Assembly (NCBI GenBank): GCA_017410445.1
Contig: JAFQQU010000063.1
Span: forward strand, 1 to 32,350
Reading direction: 5' to 3'
DNA: 32,350 bases
From: Clostridia bacterium
GTDB taxonomy: Bacteria; Bacillota; Clostridia; Christensenellales; Aristaeellaceae
Below the pieces are notes generated by a model. The model was not told where the DNA came from, searched no databases, and worked only from the letters and a program-made list of their open reading frames with translations. This document shows, in pieces, positions 16,711-30,430 of this stretch; the first letter of the stretch is position 1; the number at the start of each line of letters is the position of its first letter. A program made the translations under genes and the position numbers.

Positions 16711-16759
16711 AAAAAACGGGCGGAAACGATGGATTTTCATCGTCTCCGCCCGTTTTTTG
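16711..16759 (+). terminator. Intrinsic terminator of mntP
   Basis: A long stem of about 16 bp, ACGGGCGGAAACGATG (16716-16731) with CATCGTCTCCGCCCGT (16738-16753), with a 6-nt loop and a run of T residues. Confidence 0.9.
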
Positions 16760-16792
16760 TCTTCCGGCTCTCTCTGCCGCGATATTTCCGCT

Positions 16793-16820
16793 TTGTTTTC
16801 ATGCAGAAACATGATATACT
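16793..16820 (+). promoter_or_regulatory. Promoter of the aldo/keto reductase gene
   Basis: TTGTTT (16793-16798) and TATACT (16815-16820) with a 16-nt spacer, 38 nt before the start codon and just after the mntP terminator. Confidence 0.55.
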
Positions 16821-16857
16821 GATTTCATCCATACACCATGCAGAGGAGGATGATCCC

Positions 16858-17850
16858 ATGACGTATGTGCCTGCCGAAAACCGGTATCAATCCATGACCT
16901 ACCGCCGCTGCGGAAGAAGCGGCCTCAAGCTGCCCGCTGTATCGCTGGGCCTGTGGCATAACTTCGGAGACATCACGCCCTACGGCGTTCAGCAGAGCCT
17001 GCTGCGCACCGCCTTCGACCATGGAATCACCCACTTCGATCTGGCCAACAACTACGGCCCGCCCTACGGAGAGGCCGAGCGCAATTTCGGCCGCCACATG
17101 CTGCAGGACTGGAAGCCGCACCGCGACGAGCTGGTCATCTCCACCAAGGCCGGCTACGACATGTGGGACGGCCCCTACGGCAACTTCGGCAGCCGGAAAT
17201 ATCTCATCTCCAGCCTCGATCAGAGCCTGAAGCGCATGAATCTCGACTATGTGGACATCTTCTATCATCACCGGCCCGATCCCGGAACGCCCATCGAGGA
17301 GACCATGGGCGCGCTGGATTACATCGTCCGCAGCGGAAAGGCGCTGTATGTCGGCATTTCCAACTACAACCCCGAGCAGGCGGCCGCCGCCATTCGCACC
17401 CTGCGCGAGCTGGGCACGCCCTGCCTGATCCATCAGCCCAGCTACTCCATGTTTAACCGGTGGATCGAAAACGGCCTGACCGACCTTCTGAAGAAAGAGG
17501 GCGTTGGCTGCATCTGCTTCGCCCCGCTGAGCAACGGCCTGCTCACCTCCCGCTATCTGAACGGCATCCCCGCCGATTCCCGCGCCGCGCACGACCCGCG
17601 CTACCTCAAGGCCTCCTCCATCACCGAGGAGAAGCTCACGAAAATCCGCGCGCTCAACGACATGGCGCTCTCCCGCGGTCAGGCGCTCTCGCAGATGGCG
17701 CTTCAGTGGGTGCTGAGGGACGACGCGGTCACCTCCGCGCTCATCGGCGCGAGCCGCCCCGAGCAGATCATCGAAAATGTCCGCGCGCTGGACGCAGCCC
17801 CCTTCACCGGAGAGGAACTGGCCGCCATCGACAGGATTCTGGCCGGATAA
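16858..17850 (+). CDS. Aldo/keto reductase, YghZ/L-glyceraldehyde 3-phosphate reductase type
   Basis: A 330-residue cytosolic NADPH-dependent reductase with the AKR TIM-barrel. The catalytic tetrad is present: D61 and Y66 in 'HFDLANNYGPPYGEAE', K97 in 'VISTKAGYDMW', and H137/H138 in 'DIFYHHRPDPGTPIEE'. 'DMWDGPYGNFGSRKYLISSL' is characteristic of the YghZ/GprA subgroup and of Kv-beta-like AKRs, which reduce L-glyceraldehyde 3-phosphate and methylglyoxal. 'SALIGASRPEQIIENVRAL' is the C-terminal NADP-binding signature. The start at 16858 has GAGGAGG 8 nt upstream. It has its own promoter and is followed by a terminator, so it is a single-gene unit. Any link to the downstream glycyl radical enzyme (for instance reduction of an aldehyde product) is only a guess. 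Confidence 0.88.
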   Translation: MTYVPAENRYQSMTYRRCGRSGLKLPAVSLGLWHNFGDITPYGVQQSLLRTAFDHGITHFDLANNYGPPYGEAERNFGRHMLQDWKPHRDELVISTKAGYDMWDGPYGNFGSRKYLISSLDQSLKRMNLDYVDIFYHHRPDPGTPIEETMGALDYIVRSGKALYVGISNYNPEQAAAAIRTLRELGTPCLIHQPSYSMFNRWIENGLTDLLKKEGVGCICFAPLSNGLLTSRYLNGIPADSRAAHDPRYLKASSITEEKLTKIRALNDMALSRGQALSQMALQWVLRDDAVTSALIGASRPEQIIENVRALDAAPFTGEELAAIDRILAG

Positions 17851-17956
17851 GCCGCGCGGCTCCCCCGGACAGATCAACAGAAACACTGCCCGCCGAAGGA
17901 CCTGCAGCCGGAAAATCCGCGTCACCGGCTGCTGATCCGCCTATCCAAAGCCTCCG

Positions 17957-18004
17957 CCGCCCCTCTCCGCTCAAAGAAAAGCGGAAAGGGGCGGGGTTCG
18001 TTTT
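17957..18004 (+). terminator. Terminator after the aldo/keto reductase gene
   Basis: A GC-rich stem CCGCCCCTCTCCGCT (17957-17971) / AGCGGAAAGGGGCGG (17980-17994) is followed by GGTTCGTTTT. The T-tract is short but the stem is long. Confidence 0.65.
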
Positions 18005-18037: not shown

Positions 18038-18066
18038 TGTGCAAACCGCATCCGCTGTGGTATAAT
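18038..18066 (+). promoter_or_regulatory. Extended -10 promoter of the glycyl radical enzyme unit
   Basis: TATAAT (18061-18066) is preceded by TGG, an extended -10. The -35 is weak (TGTGCA at 18038-18043, 17-nt spacing; TTGTGT at 18035 would need 20 nt). It lies 62 nt before the start codon. Confidence 0.65.
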
Positions 18067-18128: not shown

Positions 18129-20321
18129 ATGCTCTGGAACCGCTATCACGCCGACCGAGAGTATCTGGACCTGTACGCGCATCCCGATTTTGCCCCCCAC
18201 ACCGGCGTCATCGACCGGGAGGAAGCCAAGGCCGCCATCGCCCGCATTCAGGGCCCCTCCAAGGACGTCGTAAAAGCCCGGGCATGCGCCTATGTCCTGG
18301 AGCACTGCGCGGTGGACGTCAACCCCAAGTGCTGGTTCGGTGCGAACTTCGCCGGCCGCGTCCCCAAATACAAGGAGGGCGCGAACCGGGCGATCGAGCA
18401 GCTGCACGGCAAGTGGCTCCGCGATCTGATCGACGCCGACCCCGCCGTTCAGCAGGCCATGGAGCATTTCACCGAATCCGGCGCAAACGCCTACTTTGCG
18501 GACTTTGCCCACTGGGTGCCCGACTGGGACTCCGTGCTGCGGCTGGGCTTCACCGGCCTGCGCGAACGGGCCCGCTCAGCGCGCGCCGCCAAGGAAGCGC
18601 TCACCGAGAGTCAGCAGGCCTATTATGATTCCGTCGAAATCGTGCTCACCGCCTGCATCCGCTTCGTGGGCCGGCTGGCAGACCTCGCCGAGGAGCGCAT
18701 CGACCGGGACGAGCGCATGCCGCTGCGCGTGAAGTGCCTGCGTCAGCTGGAACAGGGCGCGCCGACCGATATCTACGAGGCGCTTCAGCTGATCTATCTG
18801 TTCCACTTGATCGGCCAGTTCGTCGAGTGCGCGCAGGTGCGTTCGCTGGGCGATATCGACCGCCTGCTCTACCCCTACTATCTGCGCGACCTCTACGCCG
18901 GAACCTATACCCGCGAGCAGATTTACGAGCTGTTCCAGTATTTCTTCCTGCTGTACGACTTCCAGAAGCACGCATACAACCAGCCGGTCTCGGTGGGCGG
19001 CACGGATATCTTCGGAAACACCGCCTTCACCGATCTGACCAATCTCATTCTGGACGCCTATTACGACGCAAAGCTCGACAATCTCAAAATCCACGTATTC
19101 GTCTCCGACAACACGCCGGACGCGGTGCTGAGAAAGTGCATGGACATGATCCGCAAGGGCCGCGGCTCCTTCGTGTTCATGAATACCAAGGTCGGCGCGT
19201 CCGCCATGAGCAAGGCGTATCATCAGCCGGTCGAAGAATGGATGCTGGGCTCTCAGGGCTGCTACAACTTCAACCTCCGCGGCCAGCCCCAGCACGCCAA
19301 TCAGACCCGCCTGAACCTGCCCAAGGCGATCGAGCTGGCGCTGTTCGAGGGCGCGGATCCGCTCACCGGCTACAAGGTCGGAGCATCCACTCCGCCCGCC
19401 GAGGAAATCACGAGCTTTGATCAGTTCCATTCGGTCTTCTGGCAGCAGATCGACCATCTGCTCGGCCGCGCGCTGGTCATCTCGGATTTCTACGACAGCC
19501 ACATGGCTGAAATCAACCCGACGCCGCTCATGTCCTCCACCTTCGAATTCAGCCTGAACGCGGGCAGAAACTGCTTCACCTACGGCCCGACCTCCATGCT
19601 GATGATGGGCCTCGGCACAACGGCGGACTGCCTTACGATGATTCAGAAGCACGTTTTCGAGCAGAAGACCTGCACGCTGACCGAGCTGCGCGACGCCCTC
19701 GCCGCCGACTGGCAGGGATACGAATCCCTCCGCCAGACGCTCTACAACGATCCCGAAAAATACGGAAACAACCTCGACCGGCCGGACGCCTTCGCCGTGT
19801 CCGTGTCTCAGGGCCTGATTGACCGCATTGCCGACCGGCCGAACAAGCGCGAAAGCCGCTATATCTGCCACTTTGAGACCATCGACCGCTGCTTCCGCTC
19901 GGGCCGCCTGACCGGCGCGACTCCGGACGGACGCTTCGCCAGAAAGCCCTTCTCCAAAAACCTCAACGCCGCTTTCGGACAGGACAGAAACGGCCTGACC
20001 GCCATGATGCTCTCCTCCGCCAAGCTGAACGTCGAAATGATGCCCATGGGCGCGCCGGTGGACTTCATGCTGCATCCCTCCGCCACCAAGGGCGAGGAGG
20101 GCCTGACCGCCATGGTCGCGCTGCTGCGCGCATTCCTCATGATGGGCGGCTATGCGCTGCAGGGCAACGTGCTGGACGCGGAGGTCATGCGCGAGGCGCA
20201 GAAGCATCCCGAGCAGTATAAGAACCTGCAGGTACGCGTGAGCGGCTGGAACTGGAACTTCGTGGATATGGAAAAGGAATATCAGGATCTGTTCATCCAG
20301 CAGGCCGAGGCGTGCGTATGA
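18129..20321 (+). CDS. Divergent glycyl radical enzyme (PFL/dehydratase superfamily)
   Basis: A 730-residue glycyl radical enzyme. The C-terminal radical site is 'VRVSGWNWNFVDM' with G706. The thiyl site is C378 in 'LGSQGCYNFNLRGQ', followed by the family segment 'LNLPKAIELALFEGADPLTG'. In glycerol/diol/choline-type enzymes the site reads Gly-Cys-Val-Glu, with the Glu as general base; here that Glu is Asn (N380). It also lacks the Cys-Cys pair of true pyruvate formate-lyase. So it is probably neither PFL nor a standard dehydratase, and its substrate is unknown. It is shorter than most relatives (about 780-850). The start at 18129 has AAGGAGG 8 nt upstream. Its stop overlaps the activase start by 4 nt. 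Oxygen-sensitive, cytoplasmic; no microcompartment genes are nearby. Confidence 0.88.
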   Translation: MLWNRYHADREYLDLYAHPDFAPHTGVIDREEAKAAIARIQGPSKDVVKARACAYVLEHCAVDVNPKCWFGANFAGRVPKYKEGANRAIEQLHGKWLRDLIDADPAVQQAMEHFTESGANAYFADFAHWVPDWDSVLRLGFTGLRERARSARAAKEALTESQQAYYDSVEIVLTACIRFVGRLADLAEERIDRDERMPLRVKCLRQLEQGAPTDIYEALQLIYLFHLIGQFVECAQVRSLGDIDRLLYPYYLRDLYAGTYTREQIYELFQYFFLLYDFQKHAYNQPVSVGGTDIFGNTAFTDLTNLILDAYYDAKLDNLKIHVFVSDNTPDAVLRKCMDMIRKGRGSFVFMNTKVGASAMSKAYHQPVEEWMLGSQGCYNFNLRGQPQHANQTRLNLPKAIELALFEGADPLTGYKVGASTPPAEEITSFDQFHSVFWQQIDHLLGRALVISDFYDSHMAEINPTPLMSSTFEFSLNAGRNCFTYGPTSMLMMGLGTTADCLTMIQKHVFEQKTCTLTELRDALAADWQGYESLRQTLYNDPEKYGNNLDRPDAFAVSVSQGLIDRIADRPNKRESRYICHFETIDRCFRSGRLTGATPDGRFARKPFSKNLNAAFGQDRNGLTAMMLSSAKLNVEMMPMGAPVDFMLHPSATKGEEGLTAMVALLRAFLMMGGYALQGNVLDAEVMREAQKHPEQYKNLQVRVSGWNWNFVDMEKEYQDLFIQQAEACV

Positions 20322-21187
20322 CCGGCATTCTGATGGACGTCAAGCGCATGGCCGTGCACGACGGCCCGGGCCTGCGCACAACGCTCTTCCTCAAGGGCTG
20401 CCCGCTGAGCTGCCTGTGGTGCCACAATCCGGAGGGCCAGCGGCCGAAGCCGGAAATCGGCCTCTTCCCGGAAAAATGCATCGGCTGCGGAAAATGCCGG
20501 GAGGTCTGCCCGAACGGGACGGCCGGCCGCGCGGCCTGCATCGTCTGCGGAGCCTGCGCGAGCGTCTGCACGGCGGGCGCGCGCAAGCTGTACGGAAGGG
20601 AGATCACCCTCGACGAAGCGCTTCGCATCGCGCTGGAGGACCGGATTTTCTACGGCAGCACCGGCGGCGTCACCCTGTCGGGCGGAGAACCTCTGATGCA
20701 GGCAGATTTTGCCGCGGCGCTCCTTCGCGAGCTGTGCGCCCGGGGCGTTCACACCGCCGTAGACACCTGCGGCCACGCGCCGTGGAGCGCGTTTGAAAAG
20801 ACGCTTCCTTACTGCGGCCTGTATCTGTTCGACGTGAAGCACATGGACAGCGAAAAGCACCGCGCGGCGACCGGGCGCGGAAACGGGCTGATTCTTGAAA
20901 ACCTCGCCCGCCTGTCGGCCGCCGGCGCGCGCATACAGGTCCGCATTCCGCTGATTCCGGGAATCAACGACGACGAGGAGAACATCCTAAGAACCGGCGA
21001 ATTCCTGAAGAAAATCGGACCGGAGAAGATCAAGCTCCTGCCCTATCACGACATGGCGCACGTCAAATACCGCGCCATCGGAATGGAGGACACGCTGCCC
21101 GCGCGTCCGGAGGATATGATGGAGCGGCTGCACCGCTCGCTGGATCTTCTCAAGGGCATGAATCTTCCGGCCTACAGCGATCAGTAA
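20318..21187 (+). CDS. Glycyl radical enzyme activating enzyme (radical SAM)
   Basis: A 289-residue radical-SAM protein that cleaves S-adenosylmethionine to place the radical on the Gly of the partner enzyme. The radical-SAM cluster motif C28-x3-C32-x2-C35 is in 'LKGCPLSCLWCHNPEG'. A ferredoxin-like insert carries two further CxxCxxCxxxC clusters: 'CIGCGKCREVC' and 'CIVCGACASVC'. This is typical of activases of dehydratase-type enzymes and not of PflA, which lacks the insert. 'GVTLSGGEPLMQ' is the SAM-binding GGEP motif. The chosen ATG overlaps the upstream stop as ATGA, and GAGG lies 7 nt before it; a GTG 6 nt earlier is an alternative. Translational coupling with the enzyme is likely. Confidence 0.95.
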   Translation: MTGILMDVKRMAVHDGPGLRTTLFLKGCPLSCLWCHNPEGQRPKPEIGLFPEKCIGCGKCREVCPNGTAGRAACIVCGACASVCTAGARKLYGREITLDEALRIALEDRIFYGSTGGVTLSGGEPLMQADFAAALLRELCARGVHTAVDTCGHAPWSAFEKTLPYCGLYLFDVKHMDSEKHRAATGRGNGLILENLARLSAAGARIQVRIPLIPGINDDEENILRTGEFLKKIGPEKIKLLPYHDMAHVKYRAIGMEDTLPARPEDMMERLHRSLDLLKGMNLPAYSDQ

Positions 21188-21242: not shown

Positions 21243-22559
21243 TTAGTCGTCGTACTCGACCAGCATGACCGTGTCGCAGTGCCAGCCGCCGGTATGCGCG
21301 GAGTAGGTGCCCTCATGCCAGTATACCTGCAGGTTGTCCTGCGCGTGAATGGGCACGATGGGCCGCCACATCTTGCGTCCGTCAGAAGCCGGAATGCGCT
21401 TGATCTCCTGTTCGAGCTGATAGGTGGCGCCGCAGTCGTGAGAGACGTAGCTCTCGACCGCCCAGCCCTCGTCGTCGGCTCGGGCGATAAACACGCGGTT
21501 GGTTTCGGTGTCGCCGCCGTTCATGTAGTGCAGTCCATCCTCGCCGACGCCGTAGTAATAGGCCATGCCGCCCACGTAGGTCTGCGAGCCGTCGGTCTGA
21601 TAGGGCGCGAGGAACGAACCGCCCTTCGCAATGGGCTTGCTGAGCGCCCACTCGCCGCTGCGGTAGGTCACGCCGTAATAGGTGATCGATTCCGGATGCG
21701 CCATCTGGAACGCCGCGATGCCCACGCGCAGCGGGCGGGTCGGCGCAACCTCGAGCAGGCGTACGGTCGTGCCCGCGGGCGCAGAATAGACCACAGACAG
21801 CTCGGGCAGGCGGAGCAGGGTTTCGGTCTTCTGTCCGTCAGCCTCGCCATAGAGGTTGATATCGGTGCGCTCGCCTTCCATGGTCAGCAGCCAGCCGTCC
21901 GCATCGAAGATACCGGAGCGGATGGTATGATCCCGGGAGATGCGCGGATGGCCGTACAGCGCGAACACCCACTGCTCCTCGACCGCCGTCTGAGACGGGA
22001 CATACTGCTTGCGGACGTCGAAGTAGAACAGGCCTCCGGCGTCCGAAATGAGGAACTTGTTGGGCACGCTCCATGTCTCGCCCTCGTCGCAGGAATAGCG
22101 GAATTCCCACGTGACCGAGTTGACGCGGGTGAACAGCCAGAGCTGATTCTGCTTCTCGTTTTCAAACAGCTGGGCGTAGGTGACGCTCTTGTCGTAGATG
22201 AGCGTGTGCTCCTCGCCGAAGGACATGATGTCGTAAGGATTTTTGGTAACGCGGTATTTGAGCGTCGCGGTCTGGGCATGGCCGGTGTAGGCGACGATGA
22301 TGCGGCCGCTCTTCATGATGCACATGGACGGCGCGTTGTGCTCGTCCGAATAGAAACAGTTCAGCCGGCAGATGCGCACATCGCGGCTGATCGAGCGGCT
22401 GCATTTGGCGTCCAGCTCCTTGACGTGGATTTCGCCGATGTCCGTGACATATGCAATGTAGGTCATGCCGTTGTCGGCCACGATGGATTTTTCGTTGATC
22501 CACCAGTCGGTGTTGGCGCGCTTGATGCGCAGTTCCTTGGCCCGTTCCTTCATAATCAT
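21243..22559 (-). CDS. BNR_4-type beta-propeller protein, candidate polysaccharide lyase
   Basis: A 438-residue protein with the BNR_4 repeat family pattern: 'WWINEKSIVADNGMTYIAYV' near the N-terminus, then 'DEHNAPSMCIMKSGRIIVAY' followed by TGH, the conserved His-Asn-Ala-Pro and Gly-His signature. Later blades include 'WEFRYSCDEGETWSVPNKF' and 'YVSHDCGATYQLEQEI', which are Asp-box-like. This seven-bladed propeller fold is used by ulvan lyases (PL24, PL25, PL40 type) and by related uncharacterised proteins. There is no signal peptide. The start at 22559 has AAAGGAG 9 nt upstream; a second ATG lies 6 nt downstream. It is the last gene of the transporter operon, 36 nt after the toroid-like enzyme. 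It is probably a lyase or hydrolase for imported acidic oligosaccharides; the exact family is not assigned. Confidence 0.72.
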   Translation of the reverse strand: MIMKERAKELRIKRANTDWWINEKSIVADNGMTYIAYVTDIGEIHVKELDAKCSRSISRDVRICRLNCFYSDEHNAPSMCIMKSGRIIVAYTGHAQTATLKYRVTKNPYDIMSFGEEHTLIYDKSVTYAQLFENEKQNQLWLFTRVNSVTWEFRYSCDEGETWSVPNKFLISDAGGLFYFDVRKQYVPSQTAVEEQWVFALYGHPRISRDHTIRSGIFDADGWLLTMEGERTDINLYGEADGQKTETLLRLPELSVVYSAPAGTTVRLLEVAPTRPLRVGIAAFQMAHPESITYYGVTYRSGEWALSKPIAKGGSFLAPYQTDGSQTYVGGMAYYYGVGEDGLHYMNGGDTETNRVFIARADDEGWAVESYVSHDCGATYQLEQEIKRIPASDGRKMWRPIVPIHAQDNLQVYWHEGTYSAHTGGWHCDTVMLVEYDD

Positions 22560-22595: not shown

Positions 22596-24761
22596 TTACT
22601 TTGCGGCCAGCAGCACAGCCTCGCCCGGCTTGAGCGCAATCTCGCCCGCTGCCGCGCCGGTGCGCAGGTCGGTCATTTCGCCCATGTTCAGGCTGCATTC
22701 GCAAAGCGCGCAGTCATCTTTTCCGAAATTCGCCGCGAGGACGTATTTCTTTCCGTCCCGACCGGTCACGCCGACCGCCCGCAGCCCGGGCAGCTCCGGC
22801 TCGAACAGGGTATCGGCCATGGCCTTCACGTCCTCCGGGCCGCCCAGCGTCATGGCAAAGCCGGCCTTGAGCAGGTTCTCGCCCCGGTCATACCAGCGGC
22901 GGCGCATCGAGAAGGGCGCGCAGATTTCCTCGGCATACAGGGTCGCGCTGTTTTCTCGGCCCTTGATCTCCACCTGACGCTCGCCCATGCGGACGATGCT
23001 CAGCGGCGCAAGCGAGGCAAGGCCGATCTTTCCGTCCACATTGACCCAGCGGCCCGCGTCGATGATCTCAAACCGCTTGGCGTAATCGCCGCCCTGCAGG
23101 ATATCCCTGCCGTTTTCATGGACGACGGTGCGGACGCGTTTGTTGAAGATGTCGTTGGCCACGTTCCAGTAGACGCCGCGGACCGAGGAGACAAAGGTGC
23201 GGTTGAGCGCGTCTGCATGCTGCAGCGCCAGAACGGATGCGCCGTCCGGCAGCGCGGCAAAGGCGACCGACTTGCGCGCCATGGTCTCTTTCAGCTGGCC
23301 CTCGGCCATGAAGTCATCCGAATAGACGATGGTGCTGCCCGAGGTCAGGAAGCCGCCCTCGAACATCCACTCGCTGTGGCCGTCCACCTCGTCGAAGTTC
23401 TTCCGGCCGACGCCCTGAATGCGGCCGGCGAGATTGTATCTCCATTCGGCCAGCGAGCTGTCGTCCATCGGCAGCAGCATGCCCTGCGGCTTCTCGGAGG
23501 AGCGCCATACAAAGGAGGCATAGCGCCTGTCATCGGCGACCATGGACGCGCCGTGGTAATCGTCGTGCCAGGAGGCAAGCGTTTGAGTCGGCTTATCTCC
23601 GCCCAGGCCGTACTTTTTGTGCCAGTAGATCGCCATGGAGATGACGTTTGCGCGGTCGGTCTCAAGGCGGGTGTAGTATACCGGCGACAGCTCCTCAAAC
23701 GCGCCGAAGCGGTTGGACAGGAAGGAGCCGTCTCCGTTGGTTTCGGTTTCCTTCTCGAGAATCTTCAGCCAGCCCTGCTCGAGCATGGAGCAGTCCTCGC
23801 CGTACAGGTCCTCGATCATCGCCCACATGGGGATGGCGTAGTCCTGGCAGTAGCAGTATCTCGCGCGGCTGTCTCCGCCGATTCTCAGCAGCCGTCCGTC
23901 GTCGAAGGTGCAGGTGCGGATCAGCTCCCACTGGCCCTTCATGTTGTGATACACGATATCGTCCGCCTTCAGCCCGCGCGCCTTCAGTGAGAAGTGCAGC
24001 ATGGCGATATTGGAGAGGCTGATGACCATGTATCCCACGTTCATATAGCCGTGGTGGTTGCAGGCAAAGGAATCAAACATATTCGCGCCGACGAACATAT
24101 CGCCCACGCGGCGGCCGTCCACGATTTCATCGGAATTCTCGTCCGACTCGATCGAGATGCCGTTGGCGAAGAATCGCTGCGCCTTCTCGATATAGCGCTC
24201 GCGGTTGGGCGCATCCGGATACATGAATGCGCCGCGGTAGAGCGTCGCGCCGTTCCAGATGTTGCTCTCGGGCTTGTTGTCCTTGACGAGGCCCGCTTTG
24301 ATGGGATATTCCTCCAGCAGGAAGTCGCATTCGTTGATCATCATGGCGCGGAGCATGGCCTGATCCTTGTCGGTCAGATGCTCCCAGATGGCCTCGACCG
24401 CGTGGAACATGCGCTCGACGCCCAGCACGTAGATCCAGTTATTGCCCCACTTCTCGCCGTCCGTGCAGACGAAATCGCCGGTCAGGTGGGTGGAAAGGTT
24501 ATAACGGAGCATGCCCAGCGCCTGAGAAAGCACGGTTTCGCGGGTCAGGCCGTACTGCGCCCAGTCGATGTCATCGCACATCGCGGCGACGGCGAAGCCC
24601 GAGAAGGCCTTCTGATGGGTATGCACGCCCCAATGGCCGTGCTCGCCCGCGCCGTAGCAGATCAGCCCTTCGCGCTCGGGGCAGTAATAGAGATGCTTCT
24701 GGGAAAACGCGACCCACTTCGCCAGCAGATCGACATAGCCTTTCATGGGAAAATGAGACAT
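22596..24761 (-). CDS. Large putative alpha/alpha-toroid polysaccharide-active enzyme (family not recognised)
   Basis: A 721-residue soluble protein without a signal peptide. The N-terminal half (about 1-400) is helix-rich with many aromatic and charged pairs, as in alpha/alpha-toroid lyases and hydrolases: 'WGNNWIYVLGVERMFHAVEA', 'NHHGYMNVGYMVISLSNIAM' and 'ARYCYCQDYAIPMWAMIEDL'. The C-terminal half (about 410-721) is beta-rich ('WRYNLAGRIQGVGRKNFDEV', 'SEWMFEGGFLTSGSTIVYSD') and fits an antiparallel beta-sandwich. The two-part layout is that of the heparinase II/III and alginate-lyase-like superfamily, but I do not recognise a specific family. The start has AAAGGAG 9 nt upstream. It sits between permease and propeller genes, so it probably works on the same imported oligosaccharide. 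Confidence 0.6.
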   Translation of the reverse strand: MSHFPMKGYVDLLAKWVAFSQKHLYYCPEREGLICYGAGEHGHWGVHTHQKAFSGFAVAAMCDDIDWAQYGLTRETVLSQALGMLRYNLSTHLTGDFVCTDGEKWGNNWIYVLGVERMFHAVEAIWEHLTDKDQAMLRAMMINECDFLLEEYPIKAGLVKDNKPESNIWNGATLYRGAFMYPDAPNRERYIEKAQRFFANGISIESDENSDEIVDGRRVGDMFVGANMFDSFACNHHGYMNVGYMVISLSNIAMLHFSLKARGLKADDIVYHNMKGQWELIRTCTFDDGRLLRIGGDSRARYCYCQDYAIPMWAMIEDLYGEDCSMLEQGWLKILEKETETNGDGSFLSNRFGAFEELSPVYYTRLETDRANVISMAIYWHKKYGLGGDKPTQTLASWHDDYHGASMVADDRRYASFVWRSSEKPQGMLLPMDDSSLAEWRYNLAGRIQGVGRKNFDEVDGHSEWMFEGGFLTSGSTIVYSDDFMAEGQLKETMARKSVAFAALPDGASVLALQHADALNRTFVSSVRGVYWNVANDIFNKRVRTVVHENGRDILQGGDYAKRFEIIDAGRWVNVDGKIGLASLAPLSIVRMGERQVEIKGRENSATLYAEEICAPFSMRRRWYDRGENLLKAGFAMTLGGPEDVKAMADTLFEPELPGLRAVGVTGRDGKKYVLAANFGKDDCALCECSLNMGEMTDLRTGAAAGEIALKPGEAVLLAAK

Positions 24762-24866: not shown

Positions 24867-25793
24867 TCAGCCCTTCAGAGAGCCGATCATGACGCCCTTG
24901 ACGAAATACTTCTGGATGAACGGATAGATGCACAGAATCGGGACCGTCGCAACGACGATCAGGGAGTACTTCAGCAGGTCCGCCATGCCCTGCATCGCGA
25001 TGGCCGCTTCGGGGTCAACGATGTCGTTGACGTCGATCTGATTCATGACCAGAATCTCGCGCAGGAAGATCTGCAGCGGATACTTGTTGGAATCGGATAG
25101 ATAGATGAACGCGCTGAAGTAGGAATTCCAGTGGCCGATGGCGTACTGCATGGCGATAACCGCGATGACCGCCTTGGACAGCGGCAGAACGAATTCAAAG
25201 AAGAAGCGGAAGTCGCTGCAGCCGTCGATCTGCGCGGCCTGCAGCAGATCGTCCGGAATGGTGGAATTGAGGAAGGTACGGGTTACGATCATCTGCGAGA
25301 CGCCCAGCGCGCCCGGCAGCACCATGACCCAGAAGGTGTTCAGGATCTTCAGGTTGCGCATGACCAGATAAGAGGGGATCATGCCGCCGCCGAAGAGCAT
25401 GGTGAAGGTGAAGAGGAAGGTGAAGAAGCCGCGGTGAGGCAGCGTCTTTCTGGCCAGCGGATAGGCGCAGATCAGGGTGATGGCGACGTTAATCAGCGTG
25501 CCCAGCACGGTGTAGAAGATGGTGTTGCGGTAGCCGATCCATACCTTGGCGTTTTCAAATACCTTCTTGTAGCCTTCGATGCTCGGTTCGACCGGCCACA
25601 GAACGACCTGTCCGGTGCTGACGGCGTTGGCCGAGGAGAAGGAACAGGAGAGGATGTAGATCAGCGGGTAGAGAACCGCCAGCGTCAGAAGGCCGACGAC
25701 CGCATAGCTGACTGCGTAGAATACCTTGTCGTCCAGAGAGCGGCGGGGACGCGAATAAGTATGCCGGATTTTCCGGGTCTGAGTTTTCATCAT
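24867..25793 (-). CDS. Carbohydrate ABC transporter permease (LplC/YtcP type)
   Basis: A 308-residue inner-membrane permease of the MalG-like group. Six transmembrane segments are visible, the first at about 27-48 (YAVSYAVVGLLTLAVLYPLI). The EAA loop that contacts the ATPase is 'DDLLQAAQIDGCSDFRFFFE', followed by 'FVLPLSKAVIAVIAMQYAIG'. The insertion 'FGGGMIPSYLVMRNLKILNT' is typical of LplC/YtcP permeases, which import complex oligosaccharides. The start at 25793 (third codon of the frame) is chosen because the AGGAGG is only 3 nt before the first ATG but 9 nt before this one. It lies 15 nt after the LplB-like gene. No ATPase gene is in the operon; such systems often share a multitask MsmK-like ATPase encoded elsewhere. 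Confidence 0.93.
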   Translation of the reverse strand: MMKTQTRKIRHTYSRPRRSLDDKVFYAVSYAVVGLLTLAVLYPLIYILSCSFSSANAVSTGQVVLWPVEPSIEGYKKVFENAKVWIGYRNTIFYTVLGTLINVAITLICAYPLARKTLPHRGFFTFLFTFTMLFGGGMIPSYLVMRNLKILNTFWVMVLPGALGVSQMIVTRTFLNSTIPDDLLQAAQIDGCSDFRFFFEFVLPLSKAVIAVIAMQYAIGHWNSYFSAFIYLSDSNKYPLQIFLREILVMNQIDVNDIVDPEAAIAMQGMADLLKYSLIVVATVPILCIYPFIQKYFVKGVMIGSLKG

Positions 25794-25808
25794 GTTCATC
25801 GTCCTCCT

Positions 25809-26838: not shown

Positions 26839-28470
26839 TTAGTTGGCGCCGTACATGCGGGCGAAGCAGCTGTTGACAGCGTCCATGTAAGCATCCAGGC
26901 CCATCTTGTCGAACTCGGCAACGTAAGCATCCCACTCGGTCTCAACGTCGCGGGCGCCGGTGATGAACTGGGAGAAAGAGGTCAGGACGTAGTCGTTGAT
27001 GGTGCTCTGCAGCTCGGTGACGACTTCCTGCTCAGCCTCGTTGAATACCAGGCCGTTGATGACGGGGGTAGCAGTCTCATACTCACCCATGATGTTCTGG
27101 CCCATGTGGTAAGCGGCGTTGTAGGCCAGCGCGTCGGGCGCGGCAGCCTGACCGGCGGTAACGCGGTCGCTCAGGATGCGCGGGCCGGTCTGAGCCCACC
27201 ACTGATTCTGCAGAACGCCCCAGGAGGACAGAACCTGCATGAAGGGCTCGAAGCCCAGGGTCTCGAAGGTGCCGACGGCCTCTTCGGAGGGCTTGATCCA
27301 GTCAACGCCCTCTTCGCCGTAGCGGGTCCAGATGGACATCAGATCGGAGCACAGATAGTCGCCTACGCGGAACGCGGCTTCCGGATACTCGCAGTTAGCG
27401 GTAATGACCATGGCGATGGAGGGAACCTGCTCGGTCCACTGATGGTTCTTAACGCCAGCGGGGCCCTCGAGGGGATCCAGGCAGGTGTAGTGGCCGCGGC
27501 GGACGTCGGTCGCGCCCAGGTTGGTGGCGGAGATGCGGGCTACGCAGCCGACTACTTCGGGTTCGGGGTTCATAACGGCGGTCAGGGAAGCGGCGTCCTG
27601 GGTGATGGACAGCTCGGAAATCAGGCCTTCCTCAACCAGGGAACGGATCCACATGACGCCTTCCTTCCACTCGGGCTTGTTGGCAGCGAAGCCGACGGTG
27701 CCGTCTTCATTGCGCAGGTAGTAGTTTTCCTGAGTGTAGATGAAGGGATTCATCAGGAAGCGCATCAGGTTGCTCTTCAGCGTGCCCTTCTCGCCCATCA
27801 GAGCGATTTCATCGGCCTCGCCGTTGCCGTTCGGGTCGTCGTTCTTGAAGCGGCGCAGCATCTCGGTGAATTCCTCGGTGGTCTTCGGGAACTCGATGCC
27901 CAGAGCATCCAGCCAGGGCTTGTAAACCAGCATGCGGCTGGCGGACAGAGAGTTGTTCAGGAAGCCGTGATAGGCGAATACGCCGTAGATCTCGCCGTCG
28001 TAGCAGGTGACGTAGGGCAGCAGATCTTCCTTGTTCAGGTTGTTGAGGGCCAGCGTCTCATCGATGAAGCCGGTCTGAGTCTGATAATACTCGGTGGTGG
28101 GAACGATCATGCCCATCTCGCCGTACTTGACCAGATTGGCCAGGCCGCCCAGACCGTGCATGATGACGTCGGGCAGCTCTTCGCCGCCGGCCATGATCAT
28201 CAGCTCGACCTTCTGGATCAGCTCATTGCCGTCGCTGGGCAGCTCGACGAACTGCAGGTCAACATTCAGGTCCTTTTCGAGGCGCAGGGTCTGGCCGTTG
28301 GTTTCCCAGTCCTCAACAACAGCGCTCTGCGGAACGCCGACGGTGAAGGTGATCGTCTCGCTGGACAGCGGGATCTGACCGGGGGCGGACAGCTCGATCG
28401 CCATGGCCGGGGCAGTCAGCGCCAGCATCATGACCATCAGAAGGGCGAAGAAGCGACGAGTGTTCTTCAT
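26839..28470 (-). CDS. Extracellular sugar-binding protein of the LplA type
   Basis: A 543-residue solute-binding protein of the family 1/LplA-like group, which captures sugar oligomers outside the cell and hands them to the LplB/LplC permeases. Residues 1-24 are a classic signal peptide (MKNTRR, hydrophobic core, then 'APAMA' before 'IELSAPG'). There is no lipobox cysteine, so cleavage by signal peptidase I is expected instead of lipid anchoring. 'LEKDLNVDLQFVELPSDGNE' and 'FKNDDPNGNGEADEIALMGE' are typical of this group; the Asp/Asn-rich loop is a calcium-site-like motif. The start at 28470 has AAGGAGG 8 nt upstream. It is the first gene of the operon, directly after a strong promoter. Confidence 0.92.
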   Translation of the reverse strand: MKNTRRFFALLMVMMLALTAPAMAIELSAPGQIPLSSETITFTVGVPQSAVVEDWETNGQTLRLEKDLNVDLQFVELPSDGNELIQKVELMIMAGGEELPDVIMHGLGGLANLVKYGEMGMIVPTTEYYQTQTGFIDETLALNNLNKEDLLPYVTCYDGEIYGVFAYHGFLNNSLSASRMLVYKPWLDALGIEFPKTTEEFTEMLRRFKNDDPNGNGEADEIALMGEKGTLKSNLMRFLMNPFIYTQENYYLRNEDGTVGFAANKPEWKEGVMWIRSLVEEGLISELSITQDAASLTAVMNPEPEVVGCVARISATNLGATDVRRGHYTCLDPLEGPAGVKNHQWTEQVPSIAMVITANCEYPEAAFRVGDYLCSDLMSIWTRYGEEGVDWIKPSEEAVGTFETLGFEPFMQVLSSWGVLQNQWWAQTGPRILSDRVTAGQAAAPDALAYNAAYHMGQNIMGEYETATPVINGLVFNEAEQEVVTELQSTINDYVLTSFSQFITGARDVETEWDAYVAEFDKMGLDAYMDAVNSCFARMYGAN

Positions 28471-28528
28471 GACAGTGACCTCCTTAAAAATTTGCACGTC
28501 CATAACGCGTGCTTTAATTTCTGGATTG

Positions 28529-28557
28529 ATTTTACCACATCTCTTAACACTTTGCAA
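28529..28557 (-). promoter_or_regulatory. Promoter of the transporter/enzyme operon
   Basis: On the minus strand TTGCAA (28552-28557) and TAAAAT (28529-28534) are 17 nt apart, with TGG just before the -10. It is back to back with the promoter of the divergent enzyme, so a shared regulator could act here. Confidence 0.75.
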
Positions 28558-28591
28558 GAGGATTTAAAAAATGTCATACTTGTTTTCAACA

Positions 28592-28620
28592 TTGCATCCA
28601 TCTCCATGCTGTTGTATAAT
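28592..28620 (+). promoter_or_regulatory. Promoter of the divergent enzyme gene
   Basis: TTGCAT (28592-28597) and TATAAT (28615-28620) with a 17-nt spacer, 57 nt before the start codon. The two divergent promoters are about 35 nt apart (28557 to 28592). Confidence 0.8.
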
Positions 28621-28677
28621 GGAAGAAGAAATTCAGCCGGAAACGGCGCAGCATCATATACAGGAGGCAGCGGAAAC

Positions 28678-30369
28678 ATGAAAGAGCTCTATCTGGACAT
28701 CATGGAAAAGGCGGTCGGTGCCTACACCGTTCCCCTCATCGAGGAATACATCGAAAAAGTCAGAACCGAAGGCCTTTCCGAGCATGGTTTTCCCCGGCTG
28801 ACGTCGGACGTGGGCATCATGGTCGCGCGCGGGCGGATGCCGCACCTCAGAGACCTGTTCATCAGGCTCATGGACCTGTGCTGCGCGGAAATGCCGGTGG
28901 CATACGGCCGGGCGAAGAATGGCGCGGTCGGCAACGAGTTCAGCGTGAAGGAAGTCGTCATGTGCCTGCTGACCCTCGAGGAGACCAACGCCTTCCCGGA
29001 TGAAATCGGCCGCTGGAAGGACGCCATCCGCTCGATGGACCCCTACGCCATCTATGCAAACATCGCGCCCGTGCCGCCCAAGCCCATGCACAACTGGGCC
29101 GCATTTGCCGCCGCCAGCGAGCAGCTGCGCATCTACGCCGGCCTCGGCGCGCCCACCAGCGCGGCCTTTGTGGACAATCAGGTGGCCTCTCAGCTGTTCA
29201 ACTTCGATGAAAACGGCATGTACCGCGACCCGAACGAGCCCTTCGTCTACGACCTGACCACCCGCGCGCAGCTGGCCATGGCCCTGCACTACGGATACGA
29301 CGGCAGCAACAGCAAGGAGCTCTACGACAATCTCTTCAAGGCAAGCAAGCAGTCGCTCCTGATGCAGTCGGTCACCGGCGAGATTCCCTTCGGCGGCCGC
29401 AGCAATCAGTTCCTGCACAACGAGCCCATGTTCGCCGCGCTGCTCGAGTATGAAGCGGTTCAGCACAAGAAACACGGCGACATGGAAACCGCCCGCAAGT
29501 GCCGCCGCGCAGCCCTCAGGTGCGCGAAGAACTCGCTGAAATGGCTGAGCATGGATCATCTCTACCACATCAAAAACGGCTACGAGCCCTTCAGCGGCTT
29601 CGGCTGCGAGCCCTACGGCTACTTCCACAAGTACATGGTCACGGTCGCCTCCTTCGCAAACTTTGCCTATCTTCTGGCGGACGACAGCATCGACCCGCGG
29701 CCTGAGGAGGAAACCGCCGAGAAATACATCCACAGCACCAGCGAGCACTTCCACAAGACCTTCATCAAATTCAACGATTACTTCCTCGAATACGAGACCC
29801 GCGCCGATTTCCATTACGACTGCAACGGTCTGGGCCGCATCCACAAGAAGGACGCCCCCTCGCCCATCTGCATGTCCGTGCCAGTCACGCCCACGCCCTC
29901 CTATGGTCTGGACCTGACCAACCCCGCTCCCCTCTCCCTCTGCGCCGGTCTGAAGACGGCGGACGGCGTCGAATACTCCTGCCTGCCGGGCACGCAGTAT
30001 GAAATGAAGGAGCAGGCGGTGACCGACGGCATGGCGAAGCTGGTCTGGAAGGTCACTTTGCCCGGCGGAAGCGCGTTCACCGAGGAATGCACCGTGACGG
30101 ACGAGGGCGTCTGCCTGCGCTTCAGCGCGGACGGCGAAATCTCCGTCCTCCTGCCCGCCTTTGAGAGCGACGGCTGGAGAAAGAGCGAAATCACGGTAAG
30201 CGGCGCGGACGCCTGCGTGGCCTATGAGGGCTGGAAGTGCAGCTACTCTGCCTCTTCTCCCCTCTCCCTCGCGCCCGAAACCTACGGAAACCGCAACGGC
30301 CATTACCGCGCCCTGACCCTCGCCGCCGACAAGACCGCGGAAATCCGCATCGCGATCGAAAAGGCGTAA
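28678..30369 (+). CDS. Second putative toroid-type carbohydrate-active enzyme (family not recognised)
   Basis: A 563-residue soluble protein with no signal peptide. Residues about 1-350 look like an alpha/alpha toroid: 'PKPMHNWAAFAAASEQLRIY', 'YRDPNEPFVYDLTTRAQLAM', 'GEIPFGGRSNQFLHNEPMFA' and 'GCEPYGYFHKYMVTVASFAN' are aromatic- and His-rich helices that would line an active-site cleft. Residues about 400-563 are beta-rich. It resembles heparinase-like lyases or unsaturated-uronyl hydrolases in outline only; I cannot name the family. The start at 28678 has AGGAGG 10 nt upstream. The same frame is open far upstream, antisense to the binding-protein gene, but the promoter and ribosome-binding site fix the start here. 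It is divergent from the transporter operon and probably part of the same pathway. Confidence 0.6.
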   Translation: MKELYLDIMEKAVGAYTVPLIEEYIEKVRTEGLSEHGFPRLTSDVGIMVARGRMPHLRDLFIRLMDLCCAEMPVAYGRAKNGAVGNEFSVKEVVMCLLTLEETNAFPDEIGRWKDAIRSMDPYAIYANIAPVPPKPMHNWAAFAAASEQLRIYAGLGAPTSAAFVDNQVASQLFNFDENGMYRDPNEPFVYDLTTRAQLAMALHYGYDGSNSKELYDNLFKASKQSLLMQSVTGEIPFGGRSNQFLHNEPMFAALLEYEAVQHKKHGDMETARKCRRAALRCAKNSLKWLSMDHLYHIKNGYEPFSGFGCEPYGYFHKYMVTVASFANFAYLLADDSIDPRPEEETAEKYIHSTSEHFHKTFIKFNDYFLEYETRADFHYDCNGLGRIHKKDAPSPICMSVPVTPTPSYGLDLTNPAPLSLCAGLKTADGVEYSCLPGTQYEMKEQAVTDGMAKLVWKVTLPGGSAFTEECTVTDEGVCLRFSADGEISVLLPAFESDGWRKSEITVSGADACVAYEGWKCSYSASSPLSLAPETYGNRNGHYRALTLAADKTAEIRIAIEKA

Positions 30370-30380
30370 ATACCGCACAA

Positions 30381-30430
30381 AGAAGGCCTGCCGCACCGGA
30401 GCAATTCCATGCGGCAGGCCTCTTTTTATT
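30381..30430. terminator. Bidirectional terminator between the enzyme and the Ig-like protein
   Basis: A perfect 12-bp stem AGGCCTGCCGCA (30384-30395) / TGCGGCAGGCCT (30410-30421) with CTTTTTATT on the right. On the opposite strand the tail is TCTTTG, so it is better for the plus-strand gene. Confidence 0.85.

Follow-up and report, generated by a model that had tools for sequence, protein, structure and literature searches.

A glycyl radical enzyme lineage of Clostridia with asparagine or serine in place of the CXE glutamate

The stretch of DNA analysed here, 32,350 nucleotides in length (hereafter the window), encodes a glycyl radical enzyme (GRE) and its activase between an upstream aldo/keto reductase and a downstream set of carbohydrate-related genes, with the following features.

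16729-17850: aldo/keto reductase, upstream of the GRE
17954-17996, + strand: terminator-like hairpin, then a T-rich tail TTCGTTTT, between the aldo/keto reductase and the GRE
18061-18066, + strand: promoter-like element TGGTATAAT for the GRE unit, with a -10 TATAAT after TGG
18129-20321, + strand: GRE of 730 aa, N-type (GCYN); PF02901 309 bits, PF01228 73 bits
20318-21187, + strand: GRE activase, radical SAM, with two ferredoxin-like 4Fe-4S motifs; TIGR02494 318 bits (cut-off 174)
21243-22559, - strand: BNR_4 repeat protein, convergent neighbour; PF15892 54 bits; 66% homologue in L116
22596-24761, - strand: 721-aa protein of the downstream cluster, no Pfam match
24867-25799, - strand: sugar-type ABC permease (CUT1-like); PF00528; 89% homologue in L116
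25809-26735, - strand: second sugar-type ABC permease (CUT1-like); PF00528; 89% homologue in L116
26839-28557, - strand: extracellular solute-binding protein of an ABC transporter; SBP_bac_8 E 1.3e-4, below the cut-off; 87% homologue in L116
28678-30369, + strand: protein of ~563 aa, no Pfam match, divergent from the transporter; conserved in L116
30445-32304, - strand: protein close to the window end, with at least four Big_2 Ig-like domains

The GRE reading frame is uninterrupted (open frame 18111/18129-20321), and the start proposed for it in the preliminary description, ATG 18129, proves correct, with a AAGGAGGGAG Shine-Dalgarno sequence upstream. The activase start at ATG 20318 (GTG 20312 is an alternative) overlaps the GRE stop as ATGA (20318-20321), and the activase is translationally coupled to the GRE. 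It carries a CX3CX2C motif at residues 30-37 and two CX2CX2CX3C motifs at residues 56-66 and 76-86; the latter pair, along with a TIGR02494 score above the cut-off, agrees with the two-ferredoxin-cluster insert described for it earlier.

Upstream of the GRE, the segment 17945-18016 folds at -40.4 kcal/mol (z -4.4). The TATAAT at 18061-18066 was recognised by direct reading and is absent from the promoter list of a consensus scanner. As the terminator-like hairpin and the promoter-like element both lie between the two genes, the aldo/keto reductase and the GRE are probably transcribed separately. Further, the reductase is missing near the GRE orthologue in L106. On these grounds it was rejected as a pathway partner: it does lie upstream as first described, but a pathway link is doubtful.

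The ABC transporter is situated 3.7 kb downstream of the GRE unit in convergent orientation, which corrects the earlier statement that no transporter is adjacent, and its linkage to the GRE is kept in another genus. In that genome (G165), the contig with the GRE and the one with the transporter (L116) have near-identical ends with 145 shared 25-mers, and the joined order is GRE-activase, a heparinase II/III-like gene (sub-threshold in Pfam), BNR_4, permeases and solute-binding protein, with an alpha-L-rhamnosidase farther along the locus; the transporter and BNR_4 proteins are 66-89% identical to those of the window. A second genome (G236) has a transporter of the same type immediately upstream of GRE-activase, with proteins 28-47% identical to the window's; its solute-binding protein, at 28%, is yet the best match in that genome. 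Transporters of this type are abundant in these genomes (59 matches in G020), and hence proximity alone is weak evidence; the idea that the transporter is strictly co-inherited with every member was discarded, as it is orthologous only in G165. The GRE is part of a conserved carbohydrate-utilisation locus with a sugar-type ABC transporter, the near-GRE locus being orthologous in the window and G165 only. PDB searches gave no match for the BNR_4 protein or the 721-aa protein, and the latter was not found in L116. The proteins at 22596-24761 (-) and 28678-30369 (+) may be new carbohydrate-active enzymes; the ORFs at 28654-30396 (minus) and 27106-30369 (plus, taken whole) were set aside as antisense or shadow ORFs. 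Scanning of the main ORFs with Pfam and NCBIfam yielded neither a microcompartment gene nor an aldehyde dehydrogenase gene, in keeping with the preliminary description.

GRE eliminases are characterised by a CXE motif with a glutamate two residues after the thiyl radical cysteine (Cys+2) (PMC7077986, PMC8473560), as the preliminary description had noted for known dehydratases and as holds for E. coli YbiW and PflD; the window GRE has CYN. A scan of GTDB genomes recovered orthologues at 83% (L031), 69% (L032) and 69% (L033) identity, all with GCYNF and all from rumen or caecum Clostridia assemblies, which by identity and contig position match G165, G236 and G234, members of other genera in the window's family. 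The same family also supplies a GCFN relative at 49% identity, in G020, and a GCFS relative at 48%, the second one in G234, while outside it G945 contains a 39-40% relative with GCNN. Among 95 genomes of the order of G945 no further N-type members were found, and the re-read matches all have GCYE. In total, the Asn/Ser type occurs in 6 of ~1,770 genomes searched, weaker candidates having been scored only in part, and in a phylum sample 29/29 GREs fetched and aligned, mostly HypD-like, have Glu. Viral contigs contained no relative of the window GRE, and the best plasmid relatives are ~27% identical to it.

Comparison of the window gene with its 83% orthologue gave dN 0.109, dS 0.83 and a dN/dS of ~0.13, a value from this one pair, synonymous sites being near-saturated in the remaining pairs; the GRE gene is under purifying selection. 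Given this ratio and the presence of Asn380 in three further genera, each assembled independently, the residue is neither chance nor error, and the window GRE is a real, conserved and rare variant without the glutamate that defines the eliminases.

Trees were built by a quick method only, from a group of 45 sequences (7 Asn/Ser, 35 Glu and 3 Asp) and an outgroup of 14. In these, all seven Asn/Ser sequences group together as a single clade (SH-aLRT 99), nested in the 45-sequence group, which is itself set apart from the HypD-like and other PFL2-like GREs with a support of 100. The clade stays (99) when the Cys loop, residues 318-326 and residues 578-592 (strand beta-8) are removed; on the column-removed tree, a mostly GCYEY group is its probable sister (support 90), and three changes are required at residue 380. 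At this position the Asn/Ser clade has N in 6/7 and S in 1/7 members, the sister groups in the remainder of the 45 have E (35/35) and D (3/3), and the outgroup has E in 13/14 and D in 1/14. The Asn/Ser group is accordingly placed by its sequences as a derived branch in a Glu-bearing clade, a branch where the substitution is fixed and not sporadic. The preliminary description had held that GCYE homologues would mark the Asn as a sporadic substitution; such relatives do exist at 31-38% identity, but the second half of that expectation fails.

Some observations on the wider collection can be recorded here. A GCWD subgroup (L085, L068, L090) has Asp in place of the CXE Glu, and an operon of this subgroup in L099 contains SGNH, SASA esterase, EamA and activase genes. 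One GRE of the group (L071/L157, G1029:C29) has two in-frame stops, TGA and TAG, and is apparently either in decay or misassembled. Distant GREs outside the group have other Cys+2 residues (GCND and GCHW, at L040:7027-9360 and L046:5358-7577).

Within the alignment of 59 GREs, the following residues of the window protein are relevant to its activity.

18510-18512, + strand: His128, aligned with HypD His160; 45/45 in the group
18840-18842, + strand: Arg238, group signature, two residues past the HypD Asp278 column; 44/45 in the group, 0/14 in the outgroup
19086-19088, + strand: Lys320, group signature; 45/45 in the group, 2/14 in the outgroup
19260-19262, + strand: Cys378, thiyl radical cysteine (GSQGCYNF); same in 59/59
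19266-19268, + strand: Asn380, replacing the CXE glutamate
19875-19877, + strand: Glu583, candidate replacement acid/base, placed by alignment on strand beta-8, two positions ahead of the HypD Thr645 column
20244-20246, + strand: Gly706, radical glycine (RVSGW); unchanged in every aligned GRE having its C-terminus

Cys378, Asn380 and Gly706 thus occupy the positions first given for them. As an AlphaFold2 model from four orthologue sequences was unusable (pLDDT 50.6, pTM 0.39), the active-site positions rest on an alignment at ~30% identity. Asp125 is conserved in 45/45 sequences of the group, Gln236 occupies the HypD Asp278 column in the window GRE, and Arg394, found in 6/7 Asn/Ser members, is in or beside the HypD Tyr450 column. 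Two changes track Asn/Ser380, namely the loss of a basic residue at 324 (K/R in 33/35 E-type sequences, lost in 6/7 Asn/Ser members) and the gain of Glu583 (5/7 in the clade, 0/52 among the other sequences). By alignment, Glu583 is on the same beta-8 face as HypD Thr645, a substrate-binding residue (PMC7077986), and may face the cavity. However, the GCFN and GCFS members have Ala at 583, and so a relocation to Glu583 cannot cover the whole Asn/Ser clade. Separately, 33/35 E-type relatives have Cys directly before the radical Gly (RVCGW; e.g., L034:8624-10906 and L036:8588-10840), as opposed to Ser/Thr in N-type members. Such a Cys is also found in class III ribonucleotide reductases.

GREs are oxygen-sensitive radical enzymes. 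The coupled activase and the catalytic Cys and Gly, intact throughout the seven members, favour an active GRE, and purifying selection on a gene without the Glu that HypD and IslA need points to one with altered proton chemistry; the window GRE is likely to be catalytically active. From the gene, its motifs, phylogeny, conservation and context, we infer the following radical chemistry, substrate class and proton route. The activase would put the radical on Gly706, which would generate the Cys378 thiyl radical; this in turn would take a hydrogen from its substrate, a small carbohydrate-derived anion bound by Arg238 and Lys320, a substrate class suggested by residue charge and neighbour genes only. 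A lyase or elimination step might come next, with residue 380 merely hydrogen-bonding the substrate, and proton transfer, if any, could fall to a different group; for the GCYN enzymes the likeliest choice is Glu583 on beta-8, together with His128. Our main reading is hence of an active GRE with a coupled activase, belonging to the Asn/Ser subclade of the Arg238/Lys320/Asp125/His128 group, in which the base has moved elsewhere; we give it a probability of roughly 0.4. For the subclade as a whole, we put at somewhat short of even odds the view that it performs an unseen reaction or mechanism, cleaving or rearranging, by radical chemistry and with no CXE base, a substrate that is anionic and sugar-derived, with descent from Glu-using ancestors and a carboxylate (Glu583) regained in some members.

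The strongest alternative is that the chemistry requires no hydroxyl deprotonation, being instead a C-C cleavage or formation, or an epimerisation or isomerisation, with a sugar or sugar acid as its substrate. It would fit with the Glu being lost outright rather than just converted to Asp, and with the occurrence of Ser. Further, there are non-eliminase GREs without the Glu: PFL has CC, and BSS has been modelled via Cys493 radical steps alone (PMC13298812). We nevertheless regard it as unlikely, as the surrounding group is eliminase-like, with Glu/Asp and the conserved His128, the window GRE has no CC pair and reaches 87 bits with the PFL model, whose cut-off is 994, and BSS-like subunits or partners are absent.

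A less probable alternative is an ordinary eliminase, such as a diol dehydratase of deoxysugar catabolism, that can do without the Glu and tolerates Asn. The nearest named families are indeed eliminases, and the rhamnosidase of the G165 locus and the upstream aldo/keto reductase would suit propane-1,2-diol metabolism, but the reductase is probably transcribed on its own. HypD Glu436, His160 and Asp278 are each essential, with E436Q and H160Q losing all activity (PMC7077986), and IslA E470Q is inactive (PMC8473560). These Glu-to-Gln effects show that the Cys+2 position matters and stand against a dispensable Glu, as do the fixation of Asn/Ser throughout a clade, the Gln at the HypD Asp278 position and scores of at most 292 bits to the best eliminase models against cut-offs of at least 678.

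Lower still is the probability that the N-type GRE is a second enzyme or partner subunit of an E-type GRE, acting in consecutive steps or as a heterodimer. This derives from the three deeper members (L034, L093, L094), at 3/3 of whose loci an N/S-type GRE, an E-type GRE and an EamA permease lie in one apparent operon. Against this, no E-type GRE was found near the GCYN genes (32 kb in the window, 19 kb in L106 and ~14 kb around the G165 gene), no other GRE scoring like a group member was found in the window's 84%-complete genome, and E-type GREs also occur in tandem with one another. Finally, although a residue essential elsewhere is lost, a catalytically altered pseudo-enzyme or decaying gene is very improbable in light of the invariant Cys and Gly, the activase kept adjacent, the dN/dS of ~0.13 and the lack of stops.

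Paired or tandem GRE genes, often with one activase, are seen in L034, L093, L094, L037 and L098, and the G020 genome has about ten GRE matches. Neighbour genes vary between members of the group: fucose-isomerase-like, xylose-isomerase-like and LacI genes lie beside the G945 member, and others adjoin SGNH/SASA esterase-like, SMP-30-like, NAD-dependent epimerase and AraC regulator genes. The theme common to these neighbourhoods is carbohydrate or sugar-acid metabolism, and the wider group looks like a set of unassigned radical enzymes that take part in breaking down carbohydrates in Clostridia of the gut and rumen, with several Arg238/Lys320 paralogues per genome in some genomes.

The CXE glutamate is regarded as the hallmark of GRE eliminases, and its neutralisation abolished activity in both enzymes examined in the cited papers (HypD and IslA). 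A natural lineage without this Glu, with Glu-bearing relatives at hand, is therefore an evolutionary experiment on its role, and makes changes in GRE chemistry open to test. In open-licence literature, nothing relevant was found on CXN-motif GREs, YbiW function or an anhydroglucitol lyase; the 45-sequence group is apparently uncharacterised, a novelty that is provisional on that literature. Since no characterised family is represented, known eliminases have Glu at Cys+2 and the substitution is clade-fixed, an unusual reaction or mechanism may fairly be inferred. The "uncharacterised reaction class" of the preliminary description can be retained to this extent; the class itself would go further, elimination with a moved base (e.g., Glu583) being an alternative.

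As to known systems, the protein has the attributes of the GRE superfamily, i.e., the PFL-like domain, the C-terminal Gly radical domain, the Cys and Gly residues and a dedicated activase. No named family claims it: every NCBIfam equivalog is far under its cut-off, consistent with the earlier view that it would not cluster with a characterised family. All seven Asn/Ser members match the same NCBIfam models with a best E-value of 2e-98, as against values near 1e-200 or 0 for true members of named families, and the closest PDB chains to the window GRE score ~220 bits. PflB, of the same superfamily, has the Cys-Cys pair expected from the preliminary description, unlike the Cys-Tyr of the window GRE. 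The fumarate-adding BSS and MasD are likewise GREs, and the BSS mechanism as modelled uses no CXE base; however, similarity to them is low (87-111 bits to PDB chains), and no small partner subunit genes of their kind were seen beside the window GRE. YbiW and PflD are PFL2-like GREs like the window protein (PDB matches of 161 and 153 bits) but have GCIE and GCVE. The eliminase architecture is common by homology to CutC (TIGR04394; 218 bits against a cut-off of 1050) and the isethionate lyase IslA (PDB 7KQ3), from which the window GRE differs in lacking the CXE Glu, replaced by N/S in 7/7 clade members, and its locus in showing no microcompartment genes. The best named-family score, 292 bits against a cut-off of 678, is to the glycerol/propanediol dehydratase-type GREs (TIGR01774; PDB 1R8W, 5I2A), again without their CXE Glu. 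Relative to HypD (NF043068; PDB 6VXC/6VXE), the GRE scores 262 bits against a cut-off of 1100 and the activase 310 against 425; CVE is replaced by CYN and the catalytic Asp278 by Gln236, and the loop with Ser334, Asp339 and Phe340 is missing or shorter. The likeness to HypD lies in the GRE domains, the Cys and Gly loops and the His160 equivalent, His128, an eliminase feature that is kept in 7/7 Asn/Ser members.
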